Part shown: piece by piece, positions 3,264 through 26,147 of the stretch
Layout of the letters: every line of letters starts with the position of its first letter
How positions within the stretch are numbered: the stretch's first letter is position 1
Assembly: GCA_028872875.1 (NCBI GenBank)
Contig: JAGWOC010000027.1
Span: 1 to 36,575 of the forward strand
Source: Chloroflexota bacterium
Lineage (GTDB): Bacteria > Chloroflexota > Dehalococcoidia > DSTF01 > JACRBR01
DNA: 36,575 nt
Direction: 5' to 3'
Translations under genes and position numbers: made by a program
The notes under the pieces: generated by a model
The model's database searches: none
Seen by the model: the letters and a program-made list of their open reading frames with translations, nothing else
What the model was told of the DNA's origin: nothing

Positions 3264-4106
3264 CTACGCGCGGTTCCGCGCGGCACCGCGCGCCAGCACG
3301 CGCAGCAGCAGCAGCAGCACGGCCGCCGCCGCGACGAGGATCACCGACAGCGCGATCGGGACGTCGATCGACTTGCCCGAATCGAAGGCGTTGATGATCG
3401 CCAGCGGCATCGTGCGCGTCCGCCCCTCGAAGTTGCCCGCGAAGATCAGCGTCGCGCCGAGCTCGCTCAGCGCCCGCGCCCAGCAGAGGATCGCCCCGGC
3501 GACGAGCGACGGCCAGGCGAGCGGCAGCGTCACGCGGAAGAACGTGCGCAGCGGCGAGGCGCCCAGCGTCGAGGCCACACCCTCGTACACCGGCTCTACG
3601 CTCTCGAACCCCGCTTTTGCCGTGCGGATGTAGAACGGGGCCGACACGAAGAGCTGCGCCAGCACGACGGCCGCCGTCGTGAATGCGACATCGATGCCCC
3701 AGCGGTCGAGCAGTTGCCCGGCGACGCCCTGCCGCCCGAGCGCGACCAGCAGCGCTACGCCCGCCACCGTCGGCGGCAGCACGATCGGCAGGTCGATCAG
3801 CAGGTCGAGCGCCATCTTGCCCGGGAAGTCGCGCCGCGCGAGCAGGTAGGCCAGCGGCGTCCCCGCCAGCACCGCCGCGACGAGCACGACCGTGCTCGTC
3901 AGGGCGCTCAGGCGGAGCGCGTCGAGGGCACTCGGCGACGTGAGGTTGGCCGCCAGCTCACCGCTGGACCCGGCACGCCAGGCGAGCGCCGCGATGGGCA
4001 CGGCGAAGAACGCGGCAAAGAGCAGCGCGGGCGGGCCGAAGATCCACCCGAGCCCCAGCCGTCCACCGGGGCGCGCCGCTCCCAGCGTCCGTGTCGTCGC
4101 CGTCAT
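3264..4106 (-). CDS. modB: molybdate ABC transporter permease ModB
   Basis: The 280-residue polytopic membrane protein has about six transmembrane segments (for example WIFGPPALLFAAFFAVPIAA near 21-40 and LSVILVAAAAVLLLLLRVLA near the C-terminus). It carries the family's LIDLPIVLPPTVAGVALL segment and the EAA-type loop (GVASTLGASPLRTFFRVTLP) that docks the ATPase, followed by RALSELGATLIFAGN. ModB is the pore of the molybdate or tungstate importer. It begins one base after the modA stop, so the two are one transcript. No modC ATPase gene follows; the next gene is convergent. An ATPase from another locus must energise it. The final codons lie in a palindrome (3267-3282) that recurs after the metallo-hydrolase gene. 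Confidence 0.93.
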   Translation of the reverse strand: MTATTRTLGAARPGGRLGLGWIFGPPALLFAAFFAVPIAALAWRAGSSGELAANLTSPSALDALRLSALTSTVVLVAAVLAGTPLAYLLARRDFPGKMALDLLIDLPIVLPPTVAGVALLVALGRQGVAGQLLDRWGIDVAFTTAAVVLAQLFVSAPFYIRTAKAGFESVEPVYEGVASTLGASPLRTFFRVTLPLAWPSLVAGAILCWARALSELGATLIFAGNFEGRTRTMPLAIINAFDSGKSIDVPIALSVILVAAAAVLLLLLRVLARGAARNRA

Positions 4107-4107
4107 G

Positions 4108-4959
4108 TCAGTGCGATGACGCCACCGGCGTCAGTCCGTTCAGCGCCAGGATCGCCTGCCCGTTGACCGAGAGCAGGAAGTCGATGAACGCCTGCGCCGC
4201 ATCCGGCCGCTTCGCCCCCTTCGTGATCGCGACGGGGTAGTCGGCGATGACATTGTACGCGTCCGGGATGGCCACCATGAACACGTCGGGCATGATCGCC
4301 TTCGTCACGTCGGAGGTGTAGACGATGCCGGCGTCCGCCTCGCCCAACTGTACCTTGGCGACGACCGCCTTCACGTCCGATTCGTCCGAGACCACGTTCG
4401 CGAGCACGCGCTTCGCGAAATCGGCGCCGAACGCGGGGTCCGCCGCCATCTTCGCGATCGCCTGCCGCGCGTACGTACCGACGGGCACCCCGTTCGCCGC
4501 GAGCACGAGCTTCACCCCCGGCTTCGCGAGGTCCGCCGGCGTCTCGATCTTCGCCGGGTTCGACTTCGGCACGATGATCGTCAGCCGGTTCCGTGCGAAC
4601 GCGACGCCCGCGTCGCGCACCACGCCGGCCTTGAGCGCTTCCTGCATGTTGGCCATGTCGGCCGTGGCCAGCACGTCGGCGCGCGCGCCCTGCGCGAGCT
4701 GCGTGCGTAGCGTCGGGCTGCCGGCGAAGTTGAAGGTGATGTCGATGCCCGGGTGCGCCTGCCGGAATGCGGTCGCCTCAGCGTGGAACGCATCGGTCAG
4801 CGACGCCGCGGCGAATACGGTCAGCGTGCCGGAGCGCAGGCCCGCCCCGGGCGTCCCCGCCCCACCGGACTGCGCCTTCCCGCCGCACGCGCTCGCGATG
4901 ATGCTTGCCCCGGCCACCAGCACGGCGGCGGCCAGGGTCAGACGCCCGATCTGCGGCAT
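4108..4959 (-). CDS. modA: molybdate-binding lipoprotein ModA
   Basis: The 283-residue protein has a signal peptide with a lipobox ending at Cys25 (IASAC) and a Gly/Ser/Ala linker, then the ModA core: LTVFAAASLTDAF (Ser ligand region), FNFAGSPTLRTQLAQGARAD, LATADMANM, and later VGTYARQAI and ADAGIVYTSDV. These segments build the oxyanion pocket that binds molybdate or tungstate in this family. It should be membrane-anchored and feed ModB, whose gene starts one base downstream. A good ribosome site (AAGGGGTGA) precedes ATG 4959. The window encodes at least one molybdoenzyme (the TtrA-like protein at 22.7 kb), so molybdate uptake is relevant, though no direct link is shown. Confidence 0.94.
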   Translation of the reverse strand: MPQIGRLTLAAAVLVAGASIIASACGGKAQSGGAGTPGAGLRSGTLTVFAAASLTDAFHAEATAFRQAHPGIDITFNFAGSPTLRTQLAQGARADVLATADMANMQEALKAGVVRDAGVAFARNRLTIIVPKSNPAKIETPADLAKPGVKLVLAANGVPVGTYARQAIAKMAADPAFGADFAKRVLANVVSDESDVKAVVAKVQLGEADAGIVYTSDVTKAIMPDVFMVAIPDAYNVIADYPVAITKGAKRPDAAQAFIDFLLSVNGQAILALNGLTPVASSH

Positions 4960-11842: not shown

Positions 11843-11975
11843 ACAACTGCATAGAGCCGAACCCGCCCGAATTCGGGCGGGGCGGGGGAACCAACGACCC
11901 GGGGTGAATCGCGCGGCGACGCGCGTAGGCGAACTCCTTCGAGCCGAACCCGTCAGCTAACCCCGCAGGCATAAA
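11843..11975 (+). ncRNA. c-di-AMP riboswitch (ydaO/yuaA class)
   Basis: The conserved single-stranded and helical blocks of the ydaO/yuaA class appear in order: GAGCCGAACCC (11854 onward), a palindromic GC-rich stem CCCGCCCGAATTCGGGCGGG, GGGGGAACCAA (11884-11894), GGGGTGAATC (11901-11910), a GCGCGGCGACGCGC stem, and the diagnostic 3' block CCGAACCCGTCAGCTAACC followed by CCGCAGGC (11944-11970). This class binds cyclic di-AMP and in known cases turns genes off when the ligand is abundant; typical targets are potassium transporters and cell-wall hydrolases. A terminator stem follows within 20 bases, so control is probably by transcription attenuation. The controlled gene is the small zinc-ribbon-like gene at 12053. 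Confidence 0.93.
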
Positions 11976-11989
11976 GAGGAGGGTGAAAC

Positions 11990-13446: not shown

Positions 13447-13521
13447 GCCCCCGTAGCTCAGTGGATAGAGCGCCAGCCTCCGGAGCTGGAAGCACAGGTT
13501 CGAGTCCTGTCGGGGGTACCA
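13447..13521 (+). tRNA. tRNA-Arg (anticodon CCG)
   Basis: The cloverleaf is complete. The acceptor GCCCCCG pairs with CGGGGGT (one G-U), D-stem GCTC/GAGC, anticodon stem CCAGC/GCTGG with loop CTCCGGA giving anticodon CCG (reads CGG, Arg), a 4-base variable loop, and T-stem ACAGG/CCTGT around TTCGAGT. The discriminator is A and CCA is encoded. Its last 25 bases are repeated at 26123-26147 (22 identical), which marks it as a likely integration site. Confidence 0.97.
13497..13521 (+). repeat. tRNA 3'-end direct repeat, left copy (putative att site)
   Basis: The 3' end of the tRNA-Arg gene (GGTTCG, three variable bases, then 16 bases ending TACCA) recurs in the same orientation at 26123-26147. 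The 3' half of a tRNA gene is a classic attachment core for tyrosine integrases. The functional tRNA stays intact at this end. Confidence 0.6.
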
Positions 13522-13710
13522 TACCTCCACGGTTCTGTCAGACCTCAAGATCCGGACACCTAAGGGCCGTCGTGAGTCGGGCGGGTTCGCATCGCCACGC
13601 CTACGCTGCAAATCTGACCCAACCGTCGCGTTCGCATTCTAGCCATTTGGCGGCGGGAAACCCGCTGATCGGGCCTTGGCAATCAGCACTCTGGGGCTCA
13701 ACGTCCGGGT

Positions 13711-14667
13711 ATGAGACCCGGCATCCGTCGCACGATCAAGGGCGCCGTGGCCCTGCTCGCCGTCTCCGGCGGGCTGCTCGCGGGCGCCTGTCTGAATGGC
13801 CGCGTTGACGGCTCCGTCCGCCTGAACGACCGGGTGGACGTGGCCGCGCTGCGTCCCTCGCCCGAGGCCACGCGGGCCGACGGTACCCTGCGCATCGCGA
13901 TTGCGGGGATCATGTCGCCATCCCGGACGCTGGTCGCCTACGACCAGCTCGTGAGCTACCTCCAGACGCGCCTCGGCATGCGCGTGGTGGTCGACCAGGG
14001 TTCGAGCTACGCCGAGGTCAATGAACTGCTGCGGACGGGCCAGGCCGACGTCGCGTTCATCTGTTCGCGCGCGTATGTGGAAGGCCACACCCAGTTCGGC
14101 CTCCAGCTCCTGCTGGCGCCCGAGGTGCAAGGCAAGCTCACGTACGAGTCCTACCTCATCGTGCCGTCGGACAGCGCGGCGACGTCGCTTGCGGACCTCC
14201 GCGGGAAGCGGTTCGCGTTCTCCGACCCGCTTTCGAACTCCGGCCGGCTGGCTGCGGAGTACCAGGTGTACCTCGCCGGTGAAACGCCGGACACCTTCTT
14301 CGGGAGCCACGAGTACACCGGGAGTCACGACAACTCGATCCTCGCTGTCGCCGACCACATCTTCGATGGCGCGGCGGTCGACAGCCTGGTCTATCAATAC
14401 GTCGTGGCGCGAAGCCCGGACGTCGGCCGGAGGACGAAGGTGATCGCGGAGTGGGGCCCGTACGGCATGCCCCCTGTCGTGAGTTCTCCGCTCCTGCCGC
14501 CCACGCTGCGGGATCGGGTGCGGGGCGCGCTCCAGACGATGGACCAGTCGACGGATGGGCGCGTCGCGCTGGCCGCCCTCGGCATCGGCCGGTTCGTGCC
14601 GATCGACGATCATGCGTACGACTCGATCCGTTCCATGCTCGCGGCGCTCCGCGAGGCGGGGCGATGA
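13711..14667 (+). CDS. PhnD-like (phosphonate/phosphite-type) substrate-binding lipoprotein, probable sensor partner of the kinase
   Basis: The 318-residue protein has a lipoprotein signal with Cys27 (GLLAGAC) and a PhnD-type binding fold: LRIAIAGIMSPSRTLVAYDQ, then LVSYLQTRLGMRVVV, AEVNELLRTGQADVAFICS, YLIVPSDSAATSLADLRGKRFAFSDP and SNSGRLAAEYQVYL. In this family the fold binds oxyanions such as phosphonate, phosphite or other small anions. No ABC permease or ATPase adjoins it. Instead its stop codon overlaps the start of a histidine kinase (ATGA), so it most likely presents a ligand to that kinase. TtrS of enterobacterial tetrathionate sensing contains a PhnD-like periplasmic domain fused to its kinase; here the two seem to be separate proteins. 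The ligand is not known. The ribosome site before ATG 13711 is weak. Confidence 0.88.
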   Translation: MRPGIRRTIKGAVALLAVSGGLLAGACLNGRVDGSVRLNDRVDVAALRPSPEATRADGTLRIAIAGIMSPSRTLVAYDQLVSYLQTRLGMRVVVDQGSSYAEVNELLRTGQADVAFICSRAYVEGHTQFGLQLLLAPEVQGKLTYESYLIVPSDSAATSLADLRGKRFAFSDPLSNSGRLAAEYQVYLAGETPDTFFGSHEYTGSHDNSILAVADHIFDGAAVDSLVYQYVVARSPDVGRRTKVIAEWGPYGMPPVVSSPLLPPTLRDRVRGALQTMDQSTDGRVALAALGIGRFVPIDDHAYDSIRSMLAALREAGR

Positions 14668-16616
14668 TCGCGCGCATGCGGCGGCGGCTCTGGCAGGTGG
14701 CGGGCGCGGTCAGCGTGCGCTGGAAGATCATGGGCATCGTCATCGCCGTGGTCGCCATCCTGGGGAGTGCGGTGACCTACCAGCTTGTGATGGCCGACGT
14801 ACAGTCCATGCGGGCACAGATCGGAGAGAAGGGGCTCGCGATGTCGAAGGCGCTGGCGGCGCGCGGCGCCGACCTCGTGCTCACGAACCAACGGTACGCG
14901 CTCTACGAGCTGGCGACGGAAATCCAGCAGAGCGACCGCGACGTGCGCTATGTGTACATCACCGACCCGGCGGGCAAGCCGATCGTGCAGACCTTTGGTG
15001 CGGGGTTTCCGCGCGGCCTGCTCGCGCTGCCCACGCCGGATCCCGGCGCCCCCCAGGCGGTGCGACGGCTCTCCACCGAGGAAGGCGTCGTGCAGGACGT
15101 GGCCGTGCCGATCCTTGGCGGGCGTGGCGGCTTCGCGCACGTGGGCATGTCGGAAGCACGTGTGCAAGGCCACGTCAACAAGGACATCTGGACGAGCCTG
15201 GCGATCATGGCCGGCATGGTGCTCGTGGGCGGCGCCGGCGCCTTCGGCCTCGCGACCGTGCTGACGCGCCCCGTCGGAAAGCTCGTCGAGGCGACGGAAG
15301 CGGTGGGCCGCGGCGAGTTCGATACGGTGGCGCCGGTCTGGGCCACGGACGAGATCGGCCGGCTGGGGATCGCCTTCAACGCGATGACCTCACAGCTACG
15401 CGAGTCAGCGGAGACGCTGCTGGAACGGAACCGCCACCTGGAGGCGCTCAACGCGGTCGCCTCGGTGACGAACCGATCGCTGGACGTCTCGGCGGTCCTG
15501 GAAGCGGCGCTCGACGAGGTGTTGGAGGTGTCGGCAGCCGGGGCGGGATGGATCCTCCTGCTGAGCCATGACGCTGGCCCGCCAGACGGCCCGTACGAGT
15601 TCCAGGTCGTCGCGCGGCGCGGCGTCGAGTCGGGCGGGCCCCCGGGCGCGTTGCTCCGCCAACCAGCGCCGTGCCCGTGCTCGGTCGATGCCATGAACCC
15701 GGGCGATCCGGCGGAGGTACGTGTCGGATGTCCGCTCGCCGGACAACTGATCCCTCGGGACGCGGAGGGATCGGAGATCGTCTGCGTGCCGCTTCGGTCA
15801 CGAGGGGTGCCGGTAGGCGTGCTGAACCTCCTGTACCCGAGCCCTGTCGCGCTGAGCGAGCGGGAGCGGCGCCTCCTGCTTGCGATCGGCGACCAGGTGG
15901 GCGTGGCGATCGAGAACGCACGGCTGCTGGCAGAGCTCCGGGAGAAGGAGATCGTACGCGGGCAGTTGCTCCAGCAGGTCATCGGCGCCCAGGAGGACGA
16001 GCGCAAGCGGATCGCCAGGGAGCTCCACGACGAGACCGGCCAGTCGCTGACCTCGGTGTCAGTGATGCTCAAGAGCCTGGAGAGCATGACCCCGCCGGGC
16101 GAGCTGCGCGCACGTGTGTCGGAGATCCGGGCGGTGGCGGCCAACGCGGTCGAGGACCTGCACAGCCTGGCGTTTGAGCTGCGGCCGAGCGTGCTCGATG
16201 ACGCCGGCCTCGCGCCGGCCATCGAGCGCTACGCCCGTGACTTCTCGGAGCGGCACGGGATCGCGCTGGACGTGCACATGAGTGGCATCCACGGTCGCCT
16301 GCCCGCATCGGTGGAGACCGCACTGTACCGGATTACGCAGGAGGCGCTGACGAACGTCGCGCGGCACGCCCACGCGACGCATGCGTCGCTCGTCATCGAG
16401 CGCCGCAACGGCTCGGTGCTGCTGCTGATCGAGGACGACGGGCGCGGGTTCACGCGGAAGCCGGCGGGTGGGGATGGGCGCGAGCACCTGGGCATCCACG
16501 GGATGGAGGAGCGCGCCGCGCTGGTGGGTGGCACGCTGACCATCGAGACAGAGGACGGCGCTGGCACATCGGTCTACGTGGATGTGCCCGCGGGAGAGGA
16601 AGCCAGGGACCCATGA
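14664..16616 (+). CDS. membrane sensor histidine kinase, HAMP-GAF-HisKA_3 type
   Basis: The 650-residue kinase has transmembrane helices at about 22-43 and 175-200 that flank a roughly 130-residue extracytoplasmic domain, then HAMP (about 200-255), a GAF domain (about 275-420), the HisKA_3 dimerisation helix with phosphoacceptor His455 (RIARELHDETGQSL), and an HATPase domain with N-box QEALTNVARHA (Asn564), G1 DDGRGF (591-596) and HLGIHGM. This is the NarX/DegS/LiaS class that pairs with NarL-type regulators. The GAF domain has a cysteine set, C337-P-C339, C356 and C374, that could sense redox state or bind a metal cluster (inference). It overlaps by ATGA with the binding protein upstream and with the response regulator downstream, forming a tight three-gene signalling operon. 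Confidence 0.95.
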   Translation: MIARMRRRLWQVAGAVSVRWKIMGIVIAVVAILGSAVTYQLVMADVQSMRAQIGEKGLAMSKALAARGADLVLTNQRYALYELATEIQQSDRDVRYVYITDPAGKPIVQTFGAGFPRGLLALPTPDPGAPQAVRRLSTEEGVVQDVAVPILGGRGGFAHVGMSEARVQGHVNKDIWTSLAIMAGMVLVGGAGAFGLATVLTRPVGKLVEATEAVGRGEFDTVAPVWATDEIGRLGIAFNAMTSQLRESAETLLERNRHLEALNAVASVTNRSLDVSAVLEAALDEVLEVSAAGAGWILLLSHDAGPPDGPYEFQVVARRGVESGGPPGALLRQPAPCPCSVDAMNPGDPAEVRVGCPLAGQLIPRDAEGSEIVCVPLRSRGVPVGVLNLLYPSPVALSERERRLLLAIGDQVGVAIENARLLAELREKEIVRGQLLQQVIGAQEDERKRIARELHDETGQSLTSVSVMLKSLESMTPPGELRARVSEIRAVAANAVEDLHSLAFELRPSVLDDAGLAPAIERYARDFSERHGIALDVHMSGIHGRLPASVETALYRITQEALTNVARHAHATHASLVIERRNGSVLLLIEDDGRGFTRKPAGGDGREHLGIHGMEERAALVGGTLTIETEDGAGTSVYVDVPAGEEARDP

Positions 16617-17272
16617 GCAAGATCCGGATCGTTCTCGCGGATGACCACGCCGTGCTGCGGGCGGGCCTGAAGCTGCTGCTCGGCTCCGAGCCGGACATCG
16701 AGATTTCGGGGGAGGCGGCCAGCGGGGAGGAGGCGCTGGCGCGCGCGGCGGAGCTGCGGCCAGACGTCGTGGTGATGGACCTCCGCATGAGCGATGCGCA
16801 ACTGGACGGCCTCGAAGCGACCCGCGCCATCAGCGCCCTGCCGGACGCCCCGAGGGTGCTCGTGCTTTCGATGTACGACGACCCGGCGTTCATGGACCAG
16901 GCGCTCGCCGCGGGGGCCGCCGGGTACGCGCGAAAGCGCGACGCGGATACGGAGCTCCTCTCCGCTATCCGGGCGGTCGCGCGGGGCGAGGCGTACCTGG
17001 CGCCGGCGTTGACGACGGTGATGCTCCGTCGCATCGCCGCGCAGGAGGCTGGCGAGCGGCCGGCGGCGGGCGAGCTGAGCGCGCGGGAGCTGGAGGTGCT
17101 CCGGCACCTGGCGCTGGGCTACAACCACCGCCAGATCGCCGAGACGCTCGGCCTCAGCGTGAAGACCGTGGAAACCTACAAGGCGCGCGTGATGGAGAAG
17201 CTGGGCGTCCATGGCCGCGCGGGGCTCGTGCGGTATGCGCTGGCGCACGGCCTGCTGACCGACGAGAGCTGA
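16613..17272 (+). CDS. response regulator, NarL/FixJ family
   Basis: The 219-residue protein has a receiver domain with Asp10, Asp11, phosphoacceptor Asp56 (VVVMDLRM), Ser86 and Lys108, then a linker and a LuxR-type helix-turn-helix at about 152-215 (LSARELEVLRHLALGYNHRQ, then IAETLGLSVKTVETYKARVM). The loop after Asp56 is a few residues longer than usual (MSDAQLDGLEAT). It is the cognate partner of the kinase whose stop codon it overlaps. Likely targets are promoters of this locus. TtrR, which drives the ttr operon in enterobacteria, has the same domain layout. The repeats at 17547, 18157 and 20392 are candidate binding regions. Confidence 0.95.
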   Translation: MSKIRIVLADDHAVLRAGLKLLLGSEPDIEISGEAASGEEALARAAELRPDVVVMDLRMSDAQLDGLEATRAISALPDAPRVLVLSMYDDPAFMDQALAAGAAGYARKRDADTELLSAIRAVARGEAYLAPALTTVMLRRIAAQEAGERPAAGELSARELEVLRHLALGYNHRQIAETLGLSVKTVETYKARVMEKLGVHGRAGLVRYALAHGLLTDES

Positions 17273-17701
17273 GCGACACGGGCCGCGGCCTCAGGACACG
17301 CCTTCGAGACGCAGGCGTTCGCCGCGCGGCGATGGCCATTCGGCGGGAGGCGTAGGCAGCCTGGCCCGCACCTCTTGCACGTTTTCCTGACAGGGATGCG
17401 GGGCATTCCCCCACATTGCCTGACGGCTCCAGTCGTGAGCGGTGAACGACGCGCTGTCAGGTGGCGCGCCGCCGGCGGACGGGCGCTTCCGACGCCCCGC
17501 ATGTGGCAGGCCGAACTCACGACCAACGGCCACGCGCCCACCGGGCCATCCGGCCATCACGAGCGCACGTTCCACGATCGAGACTGGGTGGGTGGACCGC
17601 GGGAACCGTAAGGGCCTTCGGACACGTACGCCCGGCCCGCGCGATTCGCGGTCGGAGGTGGGAGCACGTCACGCTCATCGCCATTCGAGGAGGCGTCCGC
17701 G
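17273..17701. other. 429-base intergenic region, no confident gene
   Basis: No reading frame here looks like a real protein. The stretch holds an inverted pair CCTGAC/GTCAGG (about 17419-17462), the diverged repeat copy at 17547-17602 and, at its right end, the AGGAGG-type ribosome site (17687-17693) for the HxlR-type gene. Confidence 0.6.
17547..17602 (+). repeat. diverged copy of the locus repeat, upstream of the HxlR-type gene
   Basis: CATCCGGCC and CGAGACTGG, the two anchors of the repeat, are present with a 23-base spacing (24 in the copy at 18157), followed by a GGGT-GG-ACCGCG block like that of the other copies. The middle part has diverged. It ends 100 bases before the HxlR-type gene. 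Confidence 0.5.
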
Positions 17702-18154
17702 CTGGTCGGTGTCCGCGGTGCACAGCCGGAGCCGTACTGCCCGTACTTCCGCCACGCCGTGGAGCTCATCGGCCGGCGCTGGACGGGCGCGATCCTGCGC
17801 GCGCTGCAGGCGGATGTCCGTCACTTCAGCGCGCTCGTCGGCACCATCCCCGGCCTGAGCGACCGTATGCTCTCGGAGCGCCTGCGGGAGCTCGAGGCCG
17901 AAGGGCTCGTCCAGCGACAGGTCATCCCGGAGATGCCCGTGCGCGTCGAGTACGGCCTGACGGCAAAGGGGCGCGCGCTGGGCGAGGTGTTCGCGGCGAT
18001 CAGCGCCTGGGCCGCCGCATGGCATGACGACGCGCCGTTCGCTGCCGAAGCTACCGGCCCGCTTGACACGACGCGCCTGACCGGTCACGCGGCTCTTCCG
18101 CTCGCACCGGCCAGACGGCACGAGAAAGTGGAAACCAGCGGCGGGTGTGGGTAA
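17702..18154 (+). CDS. HxlR-family winged-helix regulator, apparently with a CTG start
   Basis: The 150-residue product is a winged-helix HxlR-type regulator: YCPYFRHAVELIGRRWTGAI with the usual early Cys, FSALVGTIPGLSDRMLSERL as recognition region, ELEAEGLVQRQVIPEMPVRV and YGLTAKGRAL as the wing. This frame is open from 17612 but has no ATG or TTG, and its only GTG (17759) lies inside the DNA-binding domain. CTG at 17702 is preceded by GAGGAGG with an 8-base gap and gives a normal family length, so it is the best start. A sequence error or lost start is the alternative. HxlR regulators often respond to reactive electrophiles or redox signals through the cysteine. It lies between the two kinase genes and is likely part of the locus regulation. 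Confidence 0.75.
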   Translation: MVGVRGAQPEPYCPYFRHAVELIGRRWTGAILRALQADVRHFSALVGTIPGLSDRMLSERLRELEAEGLVQRQVIPEMPVRVEYGLTAKGRALGEVFAAISAWAAAWHDDAPFAAEATGPLDTTRLTGHAALPLAPARRHEKVETSGGCG

Positions 18155-18156
18155 GG

Positions 18157-18219
18157 CATCCGGCCGTGGCAGCGTGCGCGGCGCACCGACGAGACTGGTC
18201 GGGTAAGGGACCGCGACGC
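18157..18219 (+). repeat. locus repeat, copy upstream of the second histidine kinase
   Basis: This 63-base segment is about 90% identical to 20392-20453 (five mismatches, one gap). It contains a perfect dyad GTGCGC-G-GCGCAC at 18174-18186. It begins three bases after the HxlR-type gene ends and stops 64 bases before the kinase gene. Confidence 0.8.
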
Positions 18220-18282
18220 GTGCAAGCAGTTGGGTTCAGGGCCCCGGATCCCGGGCAGGCGCTGCAGTGAGGACAGTCTGGA

Positions 18283-19821
18283 GTGGAGAATTGCAGCCGG
18301 CCGTACTCAATACGCCTCATCGCTCCCCTGATGCGCCTCCCACAACGCCTGCGCGACCGGCGCTTCTGGGAAATCCAGTTGTTGGTGCTGGTGGCGGCTG
18401 CGCCCCACTACATCATCGAGTTGGTCGGGTTCACCGAGCCCTTAGAGACCTTAGACGGCCTCGCCATCACACTGAACGTCATCCCGCTGCTCTACGCCGC
18501 CATCGCCTTCGGCTGGGAAGGCGCGTTCCTGACTGGCCTCTTGATCAGCGCCGTTGTTTCGCCGGGGATCGCGGTCTGGCACCACTCTAGCCTCCACTGG
18601 ATCGGCGAGGTTGGCCAATTGATGGTCGTGCTGCCGATGGGGCTGCTGGTTGCCTGGCGCGTTGACCGCGAGGCGCGGCAGCGGCAGCGAGCGGAGCAGA
18701 CCAGCGCGGGCCTGCGGCTGCTCAACGAAGCAGGGGTGCTCCTTGGCCAGACGATCGAGCTGGAAGAGCGGTTACCTGCCGTCTTGCGGCGGCTGCGGGA
18801 GGGGCTCGCGGTGGAAGCGATCTGGCTGTCGCTGGAGCCGGAGTCAGCGGACCAGGCTGGCATGCTCATCGTGGAGCCGCTGCAGAAGGAGTCGTCGGTC
18901 AGGGCCCTCCCGCCCGATATCCTCCAGCCAGGCGCCGCGAGCAGCGAAGCCGCTTGTCGCCGGGAGCGAGTCGTTACGGTTCCCCTGATGACGGAAGGAC
19001 GAGTCCTGGGGTCGCTGGGGATGATGGCCCCCGAAGGTCGCGATCCCACGCCCGAGCAACTCGACCTGCTGGCGACGGCGGCGCAGGAGGTTCGCGTGGC
19101 TATCGAGAACGCGACGTTGTACCGAGAGCGGCAGGAGAGCCTCGAGTCCTATGCGCGGCAGGTGACGCAGGCGCAGGAGGAGGAGCGCCTGCGTATCGCC
19201 CGTGAGCTGCACGATGAAACCGCCCAGGAACTGGTGCACCTCGTGCGCAAGCTGGAGGGGATCGCAGCATTCGCCGACCGCACCCCGACCTGGTACCAGC
19301 ACGACTTGCTGCGATGGGCCCGGGAGACCCTGCGATCGGTCCGTCGCTTCAGCCGGGATCTCCGTCCATCCGTGCTGGATGATCTCGGGCTGGTGCCGGC
19401 CATCGAGCTAGCCCTGGAGGGTGCGAATGGAAGCCTCGCCGGGGGCGCACGGCTGAGCGTAACGGGCCGACCGCGGCGTCTTGACTCGGCGGTGGAGATT
19501 GCGCTCTTCCGCATCGCTCAGGAAGCCTTGCACAACGTGGAGAAGCACGCTGCGGCTACCTCCGCGACGGTCGAACTGCGGTTCGCGGACGATGCTGTCC
19601 GACTCGCGGTCAGCGATGACGGTCGCGGTTACGATTTCCCCGGGAACGTGTCGGAGTTGGCTCGCGCTGGCAAGCTGGGCGTCCTGGGGATGAAGGAGCG
19701 AGCGGAGCTTATCGGCGGGGTGTTTGCGGTGCGCTCTACTCAGGGCGGAGGGTGCCAAGTGACGGTGGAAGTGCATGAGCAGGTGCAAGGTGGGCGCTCC
19801 CGTGGCCCCGACATCCGTTGA
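18283..19821 (+). CDS. membrane sensor histidine kinase with GAF domain, orphan
   Basis: The 512-residue kinase has an N-terminal membrane module of about four helices (around 32-50, 60-76, 80-97 and 108-126) with almost no extracytoplasmic domain, then a GAF domain (about 150-280), HisKA_3 with His310 (RIARELHDETAQELVHL), and HATPase with QEALHNVEKHAA, DDGRGYDFPG and LGVLGMKERAEL. It may sense a membrane-soluble or redox cue. No response regulator follows; it could share the NarL-type regulator encoded at 16613. GTG 18283 has GAGG ten bases upstream; ATG 18331 is an alternative that still keeps all helices. It is preceded by the locus repeat. Confidence 0.92.
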   Translation: MENCSRPYSIRLIAPLMRLPQRLRDRRFWEIQLLVLVAAAPHYIIELVGFTEPLETLDGLAITLNVIPLLYAAIAFGWEGAFLTGLLISAVVSPGIAVWHHSSLHWIGEVGQLMVVLPMGLLVAWRVDREARQRQRAEQTSAGLRLLNEAGVLLGQTIELEERLPAVLRRLREGLAVEAIWLSLEPESADQAGMLIVEPLQKESSVRALPPDILQPGAASSEAACRRERVVTVPLMTEGRVLGSLGMMAPEGRDPTPEQLDLLATAAQEVRVAIENATLYRERQESLESYARQVTQAQEEERLRIARELHDETAQELVHLVRKLEGIAAFADRTPTWYQHDLLRWARETLRSVRRFSRDLRPSVLDDLGLVPAIELALEGANGSLAGGARLSVTGRPRRLDSAVEIALFRIAQEALHNVEKHAAATSATVELRFADDAVRLAVSDDGRGYDFPGNVSELARAGKLGVLGMKERAELIGGVFAVRSTQGGGCQVTVEVHEQVQGGRSRGPDIR

Positions 19822-19972
19822 GCATCAGTCTGCCTTCTTCCAGTCAGAACGTGCGTCGGCATCCCCTGGCGGGACGCCGCGCGAATATGGTGACGTTGCG
19901 CGGGTCAGGCGGCAGCCGCCCAACTAACTCCGCGGTCGCTCCTCCCGGTCGTCGGCGAATCTTCGCCGCTGC

Positions 19973-20200
19973 CTGGCCGTAGGCGCCCGCGAGCGCGGCA
20001 AGGTCGAGCACGTTCACGACCCCGTCCATGTTGACGTCGGCCGGCTTGATCGCGCAGTAGCTGGAACGAAATCGCGACGCGCTGATCAGGCGCACAACAT
20101 CCGTCTCCCGTACCGCACGCGTTCACCGTGCACCGGCGGCGCGCCGGCGCAACCCCGCCGCGACGGCCTTTGGCTGCGGGGCCGTGTGGCAGGCGAGGCA
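19973..20200 (-). pseudogene. decayed remnant of a secreted cytochrome/dockerin-type protein
   Basis: Reading the minus strand, three protein-like pieces follow one another: GGRCLACHTAPQP with a c-type heme site CxxCH (20200-20186), CTVNACGTGDGCCAPD (20132-20085), and an EF-hand dockerin repeat ADVNMDGVVNVLDLAALAGA-YGQ (20041-19973). The first and last share a frame but are split by a TGA at 20123, and the middle piece lies in another frame. No start codon or signal peptide can be assigned. The dockerin piece resembles the intact repeats of the gene at the right edge of the window. Together with the repeat at 20392 this accounts for the 649-base gap between the second kinase and the ferredoxin gene; I see nothing else in it. 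Confidence 0.45.
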
Positions 20201-20391
20201 CCGTCCGCCCGTCCCGCGCGGCGCGCGGGTTTCCCTGACAACGTGGGCGCGTGTTGCCGAAACGCCTGACGGCCTCAGCGCGAGAGGACTGTAAATCACC
20301 ACATAACGCGCGGATCGCCGCCAACGCCCTCCGCCCATCTCGCCGCAGACGGCAGGCGAAAGTGGGGATCAACGGAGGGCTGCAGCGCAGC

Positions 20392-20453
20392 CATCCGGCC
20401 GTGGCAGCGTGCGCGCCGCACCGGCGAGACTGGCCCGGAAGGGACAGCGACGC
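20392..20453 (+). repeat. locus repeat, copy upstream of the ferredoxin (TtrB-like) gene
   Basis: This 62-base copy matches 18157-18219 at about 90%. It ends 18 bases before the ATG of the ferredoxin gene and runs into its strong ribosome site (AGGAGAGGAGG). The central dyad is GTGCGC-G-CCGCAC, with one mismatch. Its position suggests promoter or operator function for the molybdo-oxidoreductase operon. Confidence 0.8.
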
Positions 20454-20470
20454 AGGAGAGGAGGCGCGTA

Positions 20471-21373
20471 ATGCCCGACGAGGAACTGGCCGTCAAGAGC
20501 GCCCCGCCCCCGGGGGCGAGACGACTGTCACGGCGCCGGATGCTCGTGCTGGGCGGGCTCGGCGGCTCGGGGGCCGTGGCGGCACTGCTCACGCGCGGCG
20601 TCGAGGCCGCGGACCCGCCGGCGCCTTCCGCGCCGGCCACCACGAAGGCACTGGCGCCCGTGCCCGGCGACCGGACGAGCGTCCTGATCCGCATGCAGGA
20701 CGACCTCCAGCGCGCGATGGCGAAGCCCATCGAACAGCGCAAGTGGACGATGGTGCTCGACCTGACGCGCTGCATCGGCTGCTCCGCCTGTACGGTCGCC
20801 TGCAAGGCCGAGAACAACCTCCCGCCCGGCGTCGTGTACCGGCCGGTGCTGGAGGAGGAGATCGGCACCTACCCGAACGTCCGCGCGCGCTTCACGCCGC
20901 GGCCGTGCATGCAGTGCGATGAGCCGCCCTGCGTGCCGGTCTGCCCGGTGGCCGCGACCTACAAGCGCCCGGACGGCATCGTCGAGATCGACTACGACCG
21001 CTGCATCGGCTGCCGCTACTGCATCGCGGCCTGTCCATACAGCGCGCGCACGTTCGACTTCGGGCTGTTCTACACGTCCAGCGCGCCCGAGAAGGCGCCG
21101 TACGAGCGTGAGCCCTCGCACGAGTACGGGCGGTCGTGGACGCGCAAGGGAGACAGCTCGCCGATCGGCAACGTGCGGAAGTGTCACTTCTGCATCCAGC
21201 GCCTTGAGGCCGGCATGCTGCCTGCCTGCACGACGACGTGCGTGGGGGTGGCGACGTTCTTCGGGGACCAGAACGACCCGCAGAGCCTGGTATCGGAACT
21301 GATCGCGTCGCCGCGCGCGCAGCGGCTCAAGGAAGACCTCGGCACGAAGCCCAAAGTCTACTACCTGATGTGA
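20471..21373 (+). CDS. ttrB: tetrathionate reductase subunit B-like four-cluster ferredoxin
   Basis: The 300-residue protein has a twin-arginine signal ([13 protein letters not shown]), so it is exported folded. Sixteen cysteines fall into four [4Fe-4S] sets typical of DMSO-reductase-family electron-transfer subunits: C101/104/107/111, C146/149/154/158, C178/181/184/188 and C238/241/253/257. It passes electrons between the NrfD-type membrane subunit and the molybdenum subunit. Length, Tat signal and gene order (B-C-A) match TtrB, but PsrB/NrfC-type proteins are close relatives. The operon B-C-A is tight: 8 bases to the next gene and a 4-base overlap after that. A strong ribosome site lies 6 bases upstream. 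Confidence 0.85.
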
Positions 21374-21381
21374 GGTGATCG

Positions 21382-22656
21382 ATGCAAGCGACGATGCCAC
21401 AATCACGACCGTCACGGCCGTCGCTCGGGTTGTCCATCGCGGGCGTCGTCTGGGTCGCCGCGTTGGGACTCGGGCTGGTGGGCGTGGTCTTGCGCCTGGC
21501 GACGGGCGAAGTACACGCGGGCTACGGGAGCTACATCCCGTGGGGCCTCTGGGTGGCCGCCTACGTGTACTTCATCGGCCTCTCCGCGGGGGCGTTCCTC
21601 ATCTCGGCCCTGGTGTACGTAGCCGGTGTGAAGCGCCTGGAACGCATCGGTAAGCTGGCGCTCTTCACGGCGCTGGTGACGCTCTTCATGGCGCTGATCA
21701 CCATCTGGTTCGACATCGGCCACATGGAGCGCTTCTGGGAGGTCTACGTCTACGGCAATCCGTCTTCGATGATGGCGTGGATGGTCTGGCTGTACACGGC
21801 GTACTTCCTGCTGATCATCGCCGAGAACTGGTTCGCGCTGCGCGCGGATCTGGCCGCAATGTCGCGGCAGGGCGGCCTCCGCGGCGTGGTCGGGCGAACG
21901 TTGACCTTCGGCCGGACGGACGTGGGCGACGAGGCGGTCCAGCGCGACCGAGGGACGCTCCGCGTGCTGGGCACGATCGGCGTTCCGTTGGCGATCGCCT
22001 TTCACGGCGGCGTGGGCGCGCTGTTCGGCGTGATCGCCGCGCGACCGTTCTGGAACTCGCCGATCTTCCCGATCGCGTTCATCGTCGGGGCGCTGGCGTC
22101 AGGAGGCGCGCTGATCACCTTCGTGACGGCGTTCTTCTGGCCGGACCGCGGCACGCAGGAGCACCGCGACCTGGTGTCGTTCCTCGGGCGCATGGTGCTG
22201 GCGCTGCTGGCGCTCTACCTGCTGCTCGAGTGGGCGGAGTTCAGCGTGGGGCTGTACGGTCAGGTGCCCTCGGAATCGGACCCCTACCGCCAGATCATGA
22301 CCGGGCCGTACTGGTACGTATTCTGGTTTGTACACGTCCTCGTTGGCGCGCTCGTGCCGCTGGCGGTGCTGCTGTTGAGGCCCCGGTCGATGCGTTGGGT
22401 CGGTGCCGCCTGCGGGTTGATCGCCGCGGCATTCATCGCGGTGCGCCTGAACGTCGTGATCCCCGGGCTGATCATCCCCGAGCTGAAGGGACTGAACACG
22501 GCGTACGTGGAGCCGCACCTGAGCTTCACGTACTTCCCGAGCCTGATGGAGTGGCTGGTGCTGCTCTTTGTGGTCGCCATCGGCGTGGGCATCTTCTACG
22601 CGGGGAACAAGCTCCTGCCGCTCGCGACCGGTGATGAGAGTGAGGTGCAGCGATGA
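21382..22656 (+). CDS. ttrC: NrfD/PsrC-type quinone-interacting membrane subunit (TtrC-like)
   Basis: The 424-residue protein has about nine to ten transmembrane helices, for example LSIAGVVWVAALGLGLVGVV at 17-36, WGLWVAAYVYFIGLSAGAFL near 54-73 and LMEWLVLLFVVAIGVGIFYA near the end. It shows the NrfD-family features near the outer face: GSYIPWGLW, the G-x-SAGAFL turn and the WFDIGHMERFW segment. Such subunits exchange electrons with the menaquinone pool and may couple this to proton movement. It is longer than enterobacterial TtrC. It carries no heme ligand set of the cytochrome b type. The stop overlaps the catalytic-subunit start (ATGA). Confidence 0.86.
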   Translation: MQATMPQSRPSRPSLGLSIAGVVWVAALGLGLVGVVLRLATGEVHAGYGSYIPWGLWVAAYVYFIGLSAGAFLISALVYVAGVKRLERIGKLALFTALVTLFMALITIWFDIGHMERFWEVYVYGNPSSMMAWMVWLYTAYFLLIIAENWFALRADLAAMSRQGGLRGVVGRTLTFGRTDVGDEAVQRDRGTLRVLGTIGVPLAIAFHGGVGALFGVIAARPFWNSPIFPIAFIVGALASGGALITFVTAFFWPDRGTQEHRDLVSFLGRMVLALLALYLLLEWAEFSVGLYGQVPSESDPYRQIMTGPYWYVFWFVHVLVGALVPLAVLLLRPRSMRWVGAACGLIAAAFIAVRLNVVIPGLIIPELKGLNTAYVEPHLSFTYFPSLMEWLVLLFVVAIGVGIFYAGNKLLPLATGDESEVQR

Positions 22657-25600
22657 AGGACAAGAACATCACGGTCCCGGACAGCGGCGCAGACACCGGC
22701 CTCACACGGCGGGACTTTGTGAAGGCGGGCGCGTTCCTTGGCGGCGTATCGGTGCTGGCATCGCAGGTGCCCTGGCTGATGCGCGCCGGGCGCGATGGCG
22801 GCGGGCTGCGGTACCTGCGGCCGACCGAGGTCTACCCGCTGGCGCAGCCGGAGAACATCATCTACTCGGTGTGTCTCCAGTGCAACACGCAGTGCACGAT
22901 CAAGGCGAAGCAGACGCAGGGGATCGCCGTCAAGCTCGACGGGAATCCGTACAGCCCCTTCAACCTGCTCCCGCAGATCGACTACGCCACGCCGCCCGCC
23001 GATGCGGCACGCGTGGACGGCAAGGTGTGCCCGAAAGGCCAGTCGGGCGTCCAGTCGCAGTATGACCCGTACCGCATCCGCAAGGTGCTCAAGCGCGCCG
23101 GGCCGCGCGGCTCCGGCAAGTGGAAGACCATCCCATTCGACCAGGCGGTCGCCGAAATCGTGAGCGGTGGCAAGCTCTTTTCCGACATCGGGGAAGACCG
23201 GCAGGTCATGGGGCTCAAGGACGTGTTCGTCCTGCGTGACGCCGCGGTGGCCAAGGCGATGTCGGCCGACGTCGCGGAGATCCAGTCCGGGAAGATGACG
23301 GTGGCGGCGTTCAAGACGAAGCACCGTGACCACCTGGACGTCCTCATCGACCCGGATCACCCGGACCTGGGGCCGAAGAACAACCAGTTCGTGTTCATGG
23401 CGGGGCGCATCGAGCCGAGCAGAGATACCTTCGCCCAGCGCTTCACCACGGGAGGCCTGGGGTCGGTGAACTGGTACAACCACACGTCGATCTGCGAGCT
23501 GAGCCACCACATCGCGTACCTCTGGTCGACGGCCCAGTACACCAAGGGAAAGTGGGCGCCTGGAGTGGCGCACTGCAAGCCCAACTACGCGGAGTCGGAG
23601 TTCGTCATCTTCTGGGGCACCGGCGCGTTCGAGGCGAACTTCGGCCCGACGCCGATGGCAGAGCAGGTGACGGCCGGGCTCGCCAGCGGGCGGCTCAAGA
23701 TCGCCGTGGTCGACCCGAGGCTGTCGAAGACGGCCGCCAAGGCGTGGCGCTGGCTGCCCGCGGCGTCGGGCGGCGACCTGCCGCTGGCGCTCGGCATGAT
23801 CCGCTGGATCTTCGACAACCAGCGGTACGACGCGCACTTCCTCGGCGCCGCCAACAAGGCGGCGGCGACGGCGCTCGGCGAGCCGAGCTGGACCGGCGCC
23901 TCGTGGCTCGTGCGGCTCGATGCCGCGGGCACACCCGGGCGCTTCCTGCGCGCCGCGGACGCGGGCCTTGCACCGCCGGCGGGCGTGGCGGCTGCGGACG
24001 CGTTCGTCGTGAGCCAGGGCGGCAAGCTCGTCGCCGTCGACCCGTACGACGAGAAGGCCGCGGTGGTGGGAGACCTCTTCGCGGAGATGGACACGCCCGC
24101 AGGCCAGGCGAAGACCGCGCTGGCGCTCCTGCGCGACGCCGCCGCCGAGCGGACCGTGGAGGAATGGAGCAAGCTGGCCGGCGTGCCCGCCACGCACGTC
24201 ACCGACGTGGCGAACGAGTTCACGAGCCACGGCAAGCGCGCGGCGATCGACTTCTACCGGGGCGTCGTCGCGCACACGAACGGGTTCCACGCGGCGCAGG
24301 CACTGATCGCGCTGAACCTGCTCATTGGCAACCCGGACTGGAAGGGCGGACTCTCCGCCGGCGGCGGCGCCTGGAACGCGATGGGTGGCAAGAAGTGGCA
24401 GCCGTTCGACCTCGGCACGCACCCCGGGAAGCTTGCGGCGTTCGGCGTGAAGCTGACGCGCGAGGGATCCTCGTACGACCATTCGACGCTGTTCTCGACC
24501 TACCCGGCGCAGCGGCCATGGTTCCCGCTCACCTCCAACATCTACCACGAGGTGATCCCGGCAGCCGGAGCGAAGTACCCGTATCCCATCAAGATCCTCT
24601 GGCTGCACATGGGGAACCCGTTCCTGCTCGCCCCTGCCGGTAGCGCGCAGATCCCGATCGCCCGCGACCTCGACGCGATCCCGCTGCTCATCGCGACGGA
24701 CATCGTCGTCGGCGACTCCACGATGTACGCGGACTACCTGTTCCCGGATACCTCGTACATGGAACGCTGGGCAGCGCTCGGCCCGCCGCCGAGCGTCGTC
24801 ACCAAGACCTCCCTGGTACGCCAGCCGGCGGCGCCGCCGGTGCCGGAGACCGTGACAGTGGACGGCGAGCCCATGCCCATCTCGATGGAGGCGGTGATGA
24901 TCGCCGCGGCCAAGCGGCTGGGCGCGACCGGCTTCGGCGCCGGCGCACTGGGCAGCGGCTGGGCGCTGAACCGGCCCGAGGACTTCTACCTCAAGCTGGC
25001 GGCGAACGTCGCAGCCGGCGATTCCGCCACGGATGCCGTGCCCGACGCCTCGGACGCCGACCTGGCGCTCTTCAGGGCGGCGCGGCGTCATCTGCCCGCG
25101 GCGGTCTTCGACGAGGCGAAGTGGACGCGGGCCGTGGGCGCGGACAACTGGCGCCGCACGGTCTACGTGCTCGCCCGCGGCGGGCGCTTCGAGGCGGCGT
25201 CGAAGGCGTACGCCGGGGCGCTCCTGGGGCACCGCTTCGGCAAGCTCTGGAGTGTGTACTCAGAGCCGGTCGGGACGACGCGCGACAGCATGACCGGCCA
25301 GGCCTTCGCCGGCGTGCCGCGGTACCAGCCGCTGCAGGACAGCCTCGGCAAGCCGCTGGCGAGCGACGGCTATCCCTTCGACATGCTCTCCTTCAAGGAG
25401 ATCTTCGGCGCCAAGCGGACGGTCTCGAACTACTGGTCGCAGTTGGCGCTGCTGCCGGAGAACTTCGTGCTGATCGCCAAGTCCGATGCCGCGCGCCTGC
25501 GGCTCAGCGACGGCGACAGGGTGAGGATCGTCTCGCCCAGCAACCCGGAAGGAGCCTTCGACCTGGGCGCGCTCGGCAAGCGCTCGATCGAGGGAAAGGT

Positions 25601-25847
25601 GCGCGCCATCGAGGGGCTGCGCCCCGGCACGATCGAGGTCTCGCTGTCGTACGGGCACTGGGGGTACGGCGGCTCCGACGTCGTGGTGGACGGCAGCACG
25701 GTGCGCGACGACGCGCGCCGGACCACGGGCCTCTGCACGAACGCGGTGCTCTTGCTCGACCCGGCGATGAAGACGACGCCGCTGACCGACCCGATTGGCG
25801 GCAGCGCGAGCTTCTTCGACACGAAGGTCAAGCTGCAGAAGGTGTGA
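22653..25847 (+). CDS. ttrA: molybdopterin oxidoreductase, tetrathionate reductase TtrA-like catalytic subunit
   Basis: The 1064-residue protein has a twin-arginine signal (LTRRDFVKAG), a [4Fe-4S] motif C74-x2-C77-x3-C81...C126 (VCLQCNTQC, GKVCPKG), and bis-MGD domains through to the C-terminal HGDRV-like segment (LSDGDRVRIVSP). Cys281 in HTSICELSHH is the likely molybdenum ligand (codon TGC, so not selenocysteine). Several stretches resemble enterobacterial TtrA as I recall it: LALGMIRWIFDNQRYDAHFL, GEPSWTGASWLV, NRPEDFYLKLAANVA, and the GGRFEAAS...MTGQAFAGVP region. TtrA reduces tetrathionate; relatives (SrdA, and more distant ArrA/PsrA) act on selenate, arsenate or polysulfide, so the substrate is not proven. 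It needs molybdate, the ferredoxin and the membrane subunit encoded just upstream. Confidence 0.88.
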   Translation: MKDKNITVPDSGADTGLTRRDFVKAGAFLGGVSVLASQVPWLMRAGRDGGGLRYLRPTEVYPLAQPENIIYSVCLQCNTQCTIKAKQTQGIAVKLDGNPYSPFNLLPQIDYATPPADAARVDGKVCPKGQSGVQSQYDPYRIRKVLKRAGPRGSGKWKTIPFDQAVAEIVSGGKLFSDIGEDRQVMGLKDVFVLRDAAVAKAMSADVAEIQSGKMTVAAFKTKHRDHLDVLIDPDHPDLGPKNNQFVFMAGRIEPSRDTFAQRFTTGGLGSVNWYNHTSICELSHHIAYLWSTAQYTKGKWAPGVAHCKPNYAESEFVIFWGTGAFEANFGPTPMAEQVTAGLASGRLKIAVVDPRLSKTAAKAWRWLPAASGGDLPLALGMIRWIFDNQRYDAHFLGAANKAAATALGEPSWTGASWLVRLDAAGTPGRFLRAADAGLAPPAGVAAADAFVVSQGGKLVAVDPYDEKAAVVGDLFAEMDTPAGQAKTALALLRDAAAERTVEEWSKLAGVPATHVTDVANEFTSHGKRAAIDFYRGVVAHTNGFHAAQALIALNLLIGNPDWKGGLSAGGGAWNAMGGKKWQPFDLGTHPGKLAAFGVKLTREGSSYDHSTLFSTYPAQRPWFPLTSNIYHEVIPAAGAKYPYPIKILWLHMGNPFLLAPAGSAQIPIARDLDAIPLLIATDIVVGDSTMYADYLFPDTSYMERWAALGPPPSVVTKTSLVRQPAAPPVPETVTVDGEPMPISMEAVMIAAAKRLGATGFGAGALGSGWALNRPEDFYLKLAANVAAGDSATDAVPDASDADLALFRAARRHLPAAVFDEAKWTRAVGADNWRRTVYVLARGGRFEAASKAYAGALLGHRFGKLWSVYSEPVGTTRDSMTGQAFAGVPRYQPLQDSLGKPLASDGYPFDMLSFKEIFGAKRTVSNYWSQLALLPENFVLIAKSDAARLRLSDGDRVRIVSPSNPEGAFDLGALGKRSIEGKVRAIEGLRPGTIEVSLSYGHWGYGGSDVVVDGSTVRDDARRTTGLCTNAVLLLDPAMKTTPLTDPIGGSASFFDTKVKLQKV

Positions 25848-26122
25848 GACAGCCGACACGTGCGGGACACGATCGCCCAAGTCGTGCGTCCGCCAGGCAG
25901 CGGGGCGGCCTCCGTGCCATCACGATGAGGTCGGTGCGGGAAGGCTCGGCGGTCGCGTACGTGGCAAAGGCTCCCTGCGAGCCCTTCCCGGGCCCGTCGG
26001 GAGCCTCTGCGCCGCTCCATGCGATCCCTATTCCGTTTCGTTGCGGCGCGTTGGCGGGCGTTCTACGCCGCCCCCCGGATTAGCTCCTCAGGTGCAAACC
26101 ATCCCGGCCGGGTGACAATTAC
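25848..26122. other. intergenic region with a hairpin and a tRNA-like 5' remnant, no gene
   Basis: No credible coding frame is seen. GGCTCCC (25969-25975) pairs with GGGAGCC (25999-26005), a possible end of the ttrBCA-like transcript without a T-tract. At 26071-26086, CCCCCCGGATTAGCTC resembles the 5' end of a tRNA gene (acceptor strand plus D-stem) and lies 77 bases before the CCA of the tRNA 3'-end repeat, so a decayed tRNA copy is possible. Confidence 0.5.
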
Positions 26123-26147
26123 GGTTCGGCCCCTGTCGGGGGTACCA
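26123..26147 (+). repeat. tRNA-Arg 3'-end direct repeat, right copy (putative att site)
   Basis: The segment GGTTCG-GCC-CCTGTCGGGGGTACCA, read with its three variable bases, matches the 3' end of the tRNA-Arg gene (13497-13521) at 22 of 25 positions, including 16 identical bases through the CCA. It is in the same orientation, 12.6 kb away, and sits just beyond the oxidoreductase operon. The sequence upstream cannot fold into a proper cloverleaf, so it is not a functional tRNA. Confidence 0.7.

Follow-up and report, generated by a model that had tools for sequence, protein, structure and literature searches.

A three-gene sensory system of the ArrX/AioX receptor family beside a TtrA-lineage molybdoenzyme on a tRNA-targeted island in Chloroflexota

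A lipoprotein receptor, a histidine kinase and a response regulator (X, S and R) share one Chloroflexota locus with the three genes of a respiratory molybdoenzyme (B, C and A), which raises the question of what the receptor senses and which compound the enzyme turns over. We analysed this locus in a window of 36,575 nucleotides (the whole of the stretch under study, on contig JAGWOC010000027.1) from a draft genome of 3.4 Mb. The first-pass annotation had suggested a possible split TtrS-type system next to a TtrBCA-like enzyme, seemingly assembled independently, with the ligand receptor detached from the kinase. The separate receptor and the linkage with TtrBCA-like genes held up in our analysis, while the origin from TtrS and the independent assembly did not. 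The reading that we favour, with moderate confidence, is an arsenic-type respiratory island, in which X would sense an oxyanion, the XSR system would switch on BCA, and BCA would reduce arsenate.

Gene content and borders of the island

All the genes of the locus were encoded on the plus strand and were assigned by Pfam and NCBIfam searches. X (13711-14667) is a lipoprotein with a Phosphonate-bd domain (PF12974, E 1e-61), S (14664-16616) a histidine kinase with HAMP, GAF, HisKA_3 and HATPase_c domains, and R (16613-17272) a NarL/LuxR-type response regulator that combines Response_reg (REC) with GerE. Further downstream lie B (20471-21373; Fer4_11), a TtrB/DsrO-like iron-sulfur subunit of the 4Fe-4S ferredoxin type, C (21382-22656; PF03916, E 1e-42), a quinone-interacting membrane subunit of NrfD type, and A (22653-25847), a molybdopterin enzyme recognised by the NCBIfam TtrA model, a tree and an active-site alignment. 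ATGA overlaps join X to S (14664-14667), S to R (16613-16616) and C to A (22653-22656). The genes, the overlaps within XSR and the domains of kinase and regulator agreed with the first-pass annotation, from which two genes between R and B were absent: an HxlR-family regulator (hxlR, 17684-18154; PF01638, E 7e-27; start codon uncertain) and a second membrane kinase, S2 (18283-19821; GAF, HisKA_3 and HATPase_c; membrane location from hydropathy). X had also been described as a PhnD-like lipoprotein lacking transporter genes, and we indeed found no ABC transporter gene inside the island; X, S and R are contiguous, as in the ArrXSR and ArrTSR systems. Outside the island, the window carries molybdate-transporter-like ABC substrate-binding and permease genes (SBP_bac_11 and BPD_transp_1; 3267-4959, minus strand).

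This gene set occupies a genomic island of 12.6 kb (13522-26147) next to a tRNA-Arg(CCG) gene (13447-13521, plus strand; ARAGORN and Rfam tRNA), the integration target, with X starting 190 bases 3' of that gene. The last 25 bp of the tRNA gene (13497-13521) form the left att-like repeat, and a plus-strand copy of this 3' end, identical at 22/25 positions, closes the island at 26123-26147; no other match in the window came closer than 9 mismatches, against 3 for this copy, and shuffled sequences gave none. In the same-genus genome G304, the cyclophilin gene, the tRNA-Arg gene and an APH-family gene are joined directly with the insert absent, and the flanks are 94.7% and 91.6% identical to those of the window. 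Empty sites of the same kind were present in G305 and G291, with the tRNA intact in all three genomes, and X and A were not found in G277 (same genus) or G291 (same family). No integrase was detected among the Pfam-scanned ORFs of the island, which does not argue against insertion, since genomic islands without an integrase exist. Only two tRNA genes were found at 46 other XSR-BCA loci, neither of them at the edge of the cluster, and tRNA insertion is therefore particular to the lineage of the window. On our favoured reading the XSR-BCA cassette was acquired horizontally, and the island shows that a sensory system and a respiratory enzyme can be gained in a single insertion at a tRNA gene.

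The island also contains a 97-nt repeat in two plus-strand copies, one upstream of S2 (18112-18208) and the other upstream of B (20346-20442), which are 81% identical and the only full copies genome-wide; no Rfam family matched it. The Rfam matches in the window were limited to the tRNA and a c-di-AMP riboswitch (ydaO/yuaA leader, 11845-11986, plus strand; 93.7 bits, far above the gathering score). A weak dockerin-like fragment lies within the island (19844-20095, minus strand) and a dockerin/Ig-like protein near the end of the window (35610-36530, minus strand).

Receptor, kinase, regulator and predicted operator

We compared X with solved structures by phmmer and found ArrX as the best match (6x6b, E 4e-52), followed by AioX (1e-32) and PtxB (3e-19). 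The AF2 model of X (mean pLDDT 88) gave the same ranking in Foldseek, with ArrX first (39% identity, TMt 0.94) and then AioX, PtxB and PhnD. All seven pocket residues of AioX (Y88, C106, Y131, S161, S163, H192 and D210 in AioX numbering) are kept in X as Y100, C118, Y145, S175, S177, H206 and D224; they are not fully diagnostic, as the phylum's more distant PhnD-like proteins share six of the seven and lack only the first tyrosine. Near residue 68, the loop of X has the SP motif of ArrX and not the AioX form. In the receptor tree, a fully supported branch separated X, ArrX, AioX and all XSR receptors from the PhnD-like proteins of the phylum; ArrX, AioX and the X of the window are long branches there, and their relative order is unsure. 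X is thus nearer to ArrX and AioX than to PhnD or PtxB, and on these comparisons it is a member of the AioX/ArxX/ArrX receptor family.

The origin of X as a detached TtrS domain was rejected. E. coli TtrS was not recovered by phmmer from X, and it entered the receptor tree with an absurd branch length of 10; in TtrS, moreover, the PhnD-like domain and a HisKA kinase form one protein, and the window has separate genes and a HisKA_3 kinase.

ArrX binds arsenate with a Kd of 1 uM and phosphate with 150 uM, and leaves tetrathionate, thiosulfate and selenate unbound, while selectivity within the family is not fixed by the pocket residues (PMC5908839). The ligand of X is most likely arsenate. The characterised relatives of this sensor recognise the compound that their own enzyme turns over, and the receptor can therefore serve to predict the true substrate of the enzyme directly and to test it.

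Hydropathy placed two transmembrane segments in S around a periplasmic part of about 135 aa, which in relatives of S carries sCache_3_2. R is of NarL/FixJ type and has no AAA+ domain, in common with ArrR (PMC5908839). We searched the window for a candidate R operator with a matrix constructed without window sequences. The best match (17397-17415, TGCGGGGCATTCCCCCACA, 9.9 bits) lies upstream of hxlR/S2 and the second-best (20222-20240, CGCGCGGGTTTCCCTGACA, 7.6 bits) upstream of B-C-A, while the third reached 5.8 bits. Both are imperfect palindromes, and relatives have clear ones: TCAGG-N5-CCTGA, with one mismatch allowed, was found upstream of B genes at 13 of 38 loci (0.5 expected), and TGTCAGG-N5-CCTGACA, with at least 12 of 14 positions matching, in 18 upstream regions (0.15 in shuffles), counts that are not all independent because some rows are related genomes. 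This conserved palindrome resembles the FixJ-like site tcaggtttttccctga noted 5' of Chrysiogenes arrA (PMC5908839), and R is its predicted binding protein.

From these parts we infer the following route. Outside the membrane, X would bind an oxyanion, most likely arsenate, and loaded X would activate S through the periplasmic domain of S. S would then phosphorylate R, which would bind TGTCAGG-N5-CCTGACA upstream of B-C-A and of hxlR/S2 and switch on the exported molybdoenzyme. Electrons from quinol would pass through C and B to A, and BCA would most likely reduce arsenate. Control of the enzyme by the adjoining XSR system is probable.

Molybdoenzyme linkage, BCA and the arsenic context

The first-pass annotation had proposed a survey for co-occurrence of the triplet with TtrA-like genes. 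In 301 genomes of the phylum, which include related and hence not independent genomes, relatives of X (at least 40% identity) were present in 18 of the 30 genomes with a TtrA-like A and in 5 of the 271 without (Fisher P 6e-17). A wider scan with an alignment query recovered 79 loci from Chloroflexota, Methylomirabilota, Rokubacteria, Zixibacteria, Bacillota, Nitrospirota, Desulfuromonadales, Methanoperedens and others. Among the 69 XSR loci of HisKA_3 type, the window included, 36 had a TtrA-like A and 18 another MopB protein; in 11 the flank was too short, and 4 had no such gene within flanks of 8 kb or more on each side. A molybdoenzyme therefore accompanied 54 of the 58 informative loci, and the adjoining respiratory molybdoenzyme is a feature shared with ArrXSR and ArrTSR. 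The receptor separate from its kinase and the LuxR-type regulator were conserved beside TtrBCA-like genes, and the possibility that such triplets stand mainly beside unrelated genes was not borne out, with no phosphonate uptake genes seen in the loci examined.

The other MopB proteins were ArrA-like, PhsA-like or of other types, and included a near-full-length ArrA (1193 bits) at locus L129, where the catalytic domain class of the kinase and the DNA-binding domain class of the regulator are those of S and R. HisKA_3 kinases with LuxR-type regulators hence also serve ArrA loci, and AioXSR, ArxXSR, ArrXSR and the Melioribacter roseus ArrTSR were described earlier, which speaks against an independent assembly in this locus. 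Beyond the HisKA_3 group, HisKA kinases are the partners of many X proteins, often without a molybdoenzyme nearby, and X as such is therefore broader than this use.

This linkage bears on whether X might sense phosphate or phosphite and so place the enzyme under phosphorus status. The family of X does bind phosphate, weakly, and PtxB and PhnD come next in rank, but neither phosphonate nor phosphite genes were noticed next to the triplets, 54 of the 58 informative loci have a respiratory molybdoenzyme, and ArrX prefers arsenate over phosphate 150-fold (PMC5908839). We regard a phosphorus sensor as very improbable, and continue with arsenate as the favoured ligand.

A scored 470 bits on the NCBIfam TtrA model (NF011567), under its curated cut-off of 1750 (E. 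coli TtrA, 2075), and 82 bits on the ArrA model (NF041714), under its cut-off of 1600. B, which has a twin-arginine-like N-terminus (10 protein letters), scored 182 bits on DsrO and 179 bits on TtrB, both below cut-off. In the tree, A grouped with TtrA and apart from ArrA and Psr/Phs (100% SH-aLRT), within a clade of 46 sequences from Chloroflexota and Bacillota, of which 33 have XSR nearby; its neighbours were E. coli TtrA, an Azospirillum enzyme, a Salmonella plasmid enzyme and a haloarchaeal enzyme. This tree came from a quick search under the LG model, with several long reference branches, and did not include Pyrobaculum or SrdA sequences. The model scores and the tree make A a relative within the TtrA lineage. 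Enzymes of this lineage are usually annotated as tetrathionate reductases. The sequence of A does not reveal its substrate, since identity to E. coli TtrA is no more than 28% and ArrA lies far away in the tree. The lineage also takes in SrdA and an archaeal arsenate reductase (PMC7331816, PMC10100899).

The molybdenum-ligand loop of A, HTSICELSHHIA, has HTxICELSHHIA in common with HTNICELSHHIA of the Salmonella plasmid enzyme. ArrA-type proteins have HSAICAE, E. coli TtrA has HGAYCGLAYRA, and the XSR-linked enzymes of the larger sister subclade carry HTTVCQGS. The Salmonella enzyme belongs to a TtrA-like B-C-A set in the ars island of an IncHI2 plasmid, divergent from arsR (L201, 8013-12817).

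Arsenic genes recurred at other XSR loci as well. At L128, whose A sits in the same 10-member clade as the A of the window, Acr3 (458 bits, above cut-off) lies two genes upstream of X beside XSR-BCA. Acr3 homologues (54-78% identity) were found at L078, L081, L133, L169, L136, L147, L149, L126 and L182, and arsA/arsD at L147 and L153. In the phylum sample, 3 of 30 genomes had Acr3 within 15 kb of A against 0.065 expected; this comparison uses approximate genome sizes, and one of these Acr3 hits falls under the family cut-off. At genome level, co-occurrence with Acr3 was significant for A (P 0.0025) and not for X (P 0.14). The island of the window has no ars genes, and the Acr3 of this genome is on another contig. 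Genes 3' of A at another locus (L084), considered as arsC and acr3, were rejected, as the NCBIfam scan assigned them to zinc/manganese transport. On the sequence evidence, a role in sensing arsenate and in turning over arsenic compounds is likely.

These observations also weigh on the substrates that compete with arsenate. If the system were one for sulfur oxyanions, X would sense tetrathionate or thiosulfate and BCA would be a tetrathionate reductase, a functional parallel to TtrSR-TtrBCA; the scores of A, B and C on the TtrA, TtrB and TtrC models, the B-C-A order, the lineage of A and the PhsA-like enzymes at some XSR loci all fit this. It is nevertheless unlikely, given an ArrX-type receptor from which TtrS was unfound, the failure of ArrX, AioX and ArxX alike to bind tetrathionate and thiosulfate (PMC5908839), a loop that differs from TtrA and matches an ars-island enzyme, and the recurrent Acr3/ars genes. 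Selenate, with BCA as an SrdBCA-like reductase, seems less probable still. SrdA falls in the same lineage as A (PMC7331816), the srd operon is named in B-C-A order, and X matches a putative selenate-binding family weakly (75 bits, cut-off 250), but the receptor is again of the ArrX type, which does not bind selenate (PMC5908839), and it is arsenic genes that recur nearby. X might also sense an arsenic oxyanion while BCA carries out arsenite oxidation or acts on a related compound, e.g. thioarsenate. The AioX and ArxX sensors do serve arsenite oxidases (PMC5908839), and the direction of an enzyme is unreadable from sequence; on the other side, the loop of X is ArrX-like and not AioX-like, and A is of neither the ArrA/ArxA nor the AioA type by model scores and tree. 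We give this version about as little credence as selenate, and retain arsenate reduction as the preferred reading.

Relation to described systems

Three-component X-S-R systems are known as AioXSR, ArxXSR and ArrXSR (PMC5908839), and in M. roseus an ArrTSR system lies directly 5' of a TtrA-type locus with ars genes nearby (PMC5492636). The architecture is therefore of a known kind, though thinly studied, and a similar arrangement has been described once before. Likened by description and not by sequence, M. roseus has a PhnD-like receptor, a kinase and a regulator upstream of a TtrA-type molybdoenzyme, as in the window; it belongs to a different phylum, its ars genes are adjacent whereas the island has none, and no tRNA island or operator was described for it. 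Its ttrA transcript was raised on arsenate, without clear statistical support (PMC5492636). ArrXSR of Chrysiogenes arsenatis shares with the window a receptor of ArrX type encoded apart from the kinase (39% identical in the structural alignment), a NarL/FixJ-type regulator and similar operator half-sites (PMC5908839), but serves ArrAB, whereas the XSR of the window adjoins a TtrA-lineage enzyme. AioXSR and ArxXSR have the X-S-R gene set, the receptor family and the pocket residues in common with it; AioR and ArxR, unlike R, are regulators of AAA+ type that act at RpoN promoters, and these receptors bind arsenite and go with Aio or Arx enzymes. The enterobacterial TtrSR-TtrBCA system resembles the window in the B-C-A order, the lineage of A, the LuxR-type regulator and a PhnD-fold sensing domain, and differs in its fused receptor and HisKA kinase and in the identity and loop of TtrA noted above. 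Finally, the BCA set of the Salmonella IncHI2 plasmid CP082712 has the B-C-A order, an A 34% identical to that of the window and the near-identical loop, but no XSR, arsR standing divergent instead.

New in this study are the tRNA-Arg(CCG) island with its att-like repeat and three empty-site relatives, the 54/58 linkage, the shared operator palindrome, the Acr3/ars proximity and the match to the ars-island loop. In the open-access literature (subscription papers excluded), we found no prior report of the tRNA island, the spread in Chloroflexota or the shared operator. If arsenate is right, surveys of arrA miss arsenate reduction by groundwater Chloroflexota. A bolder generalisation, about which we are divided and lean slightly to the sceptical side, is a widespread and transferable non-Arr arsenate respiration in Chloroflexota and their neighbours, in which one XSR family and one operator would serve exchangeable molybdoenzymes (TtrA-lineage, ArrA or PhsA-like), and many 'tetrathionate reductase' annotations there would be arsenic enzymes.

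Several variants were seen among the surveyed loci. Complete BCA sets without XSR occurred at L097, L098, L102 and L103, in relatives with small genomes from the same class (probably Dehalococcoidaceae), with A about 45-48% identical. We set aside an identity of these homologues with OmeA/OmeB of the organohalide respiration complex, because OmeA/OmeB have as their partner HupX, a product of the hup operon (PMC6005880), and each of these loci has a B gene of its own. FmdE-family genes made up 15 of the 84 neighbour ORFs scanned at XSR-BCA loci, which also included MobA and MoaA genes; none of the three was seen in the island of the window. At L075, L108, L110, L135 and L136, XSR was linked to a distinct MopB group that did not fall near the ArrA, TtrA or PhsA references and has the molybdenum-ligand loop HGxYCSDA. 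Two tandem XSR modules preceded a single BCA set at L124, L133 and L169, and two Methanoperedens loci (L179 and L182) had two X-S units and two ArrA-like enzymes, the former with a kinase of HisKA type and a regulator with an archaeal-type DNA-binding domain.
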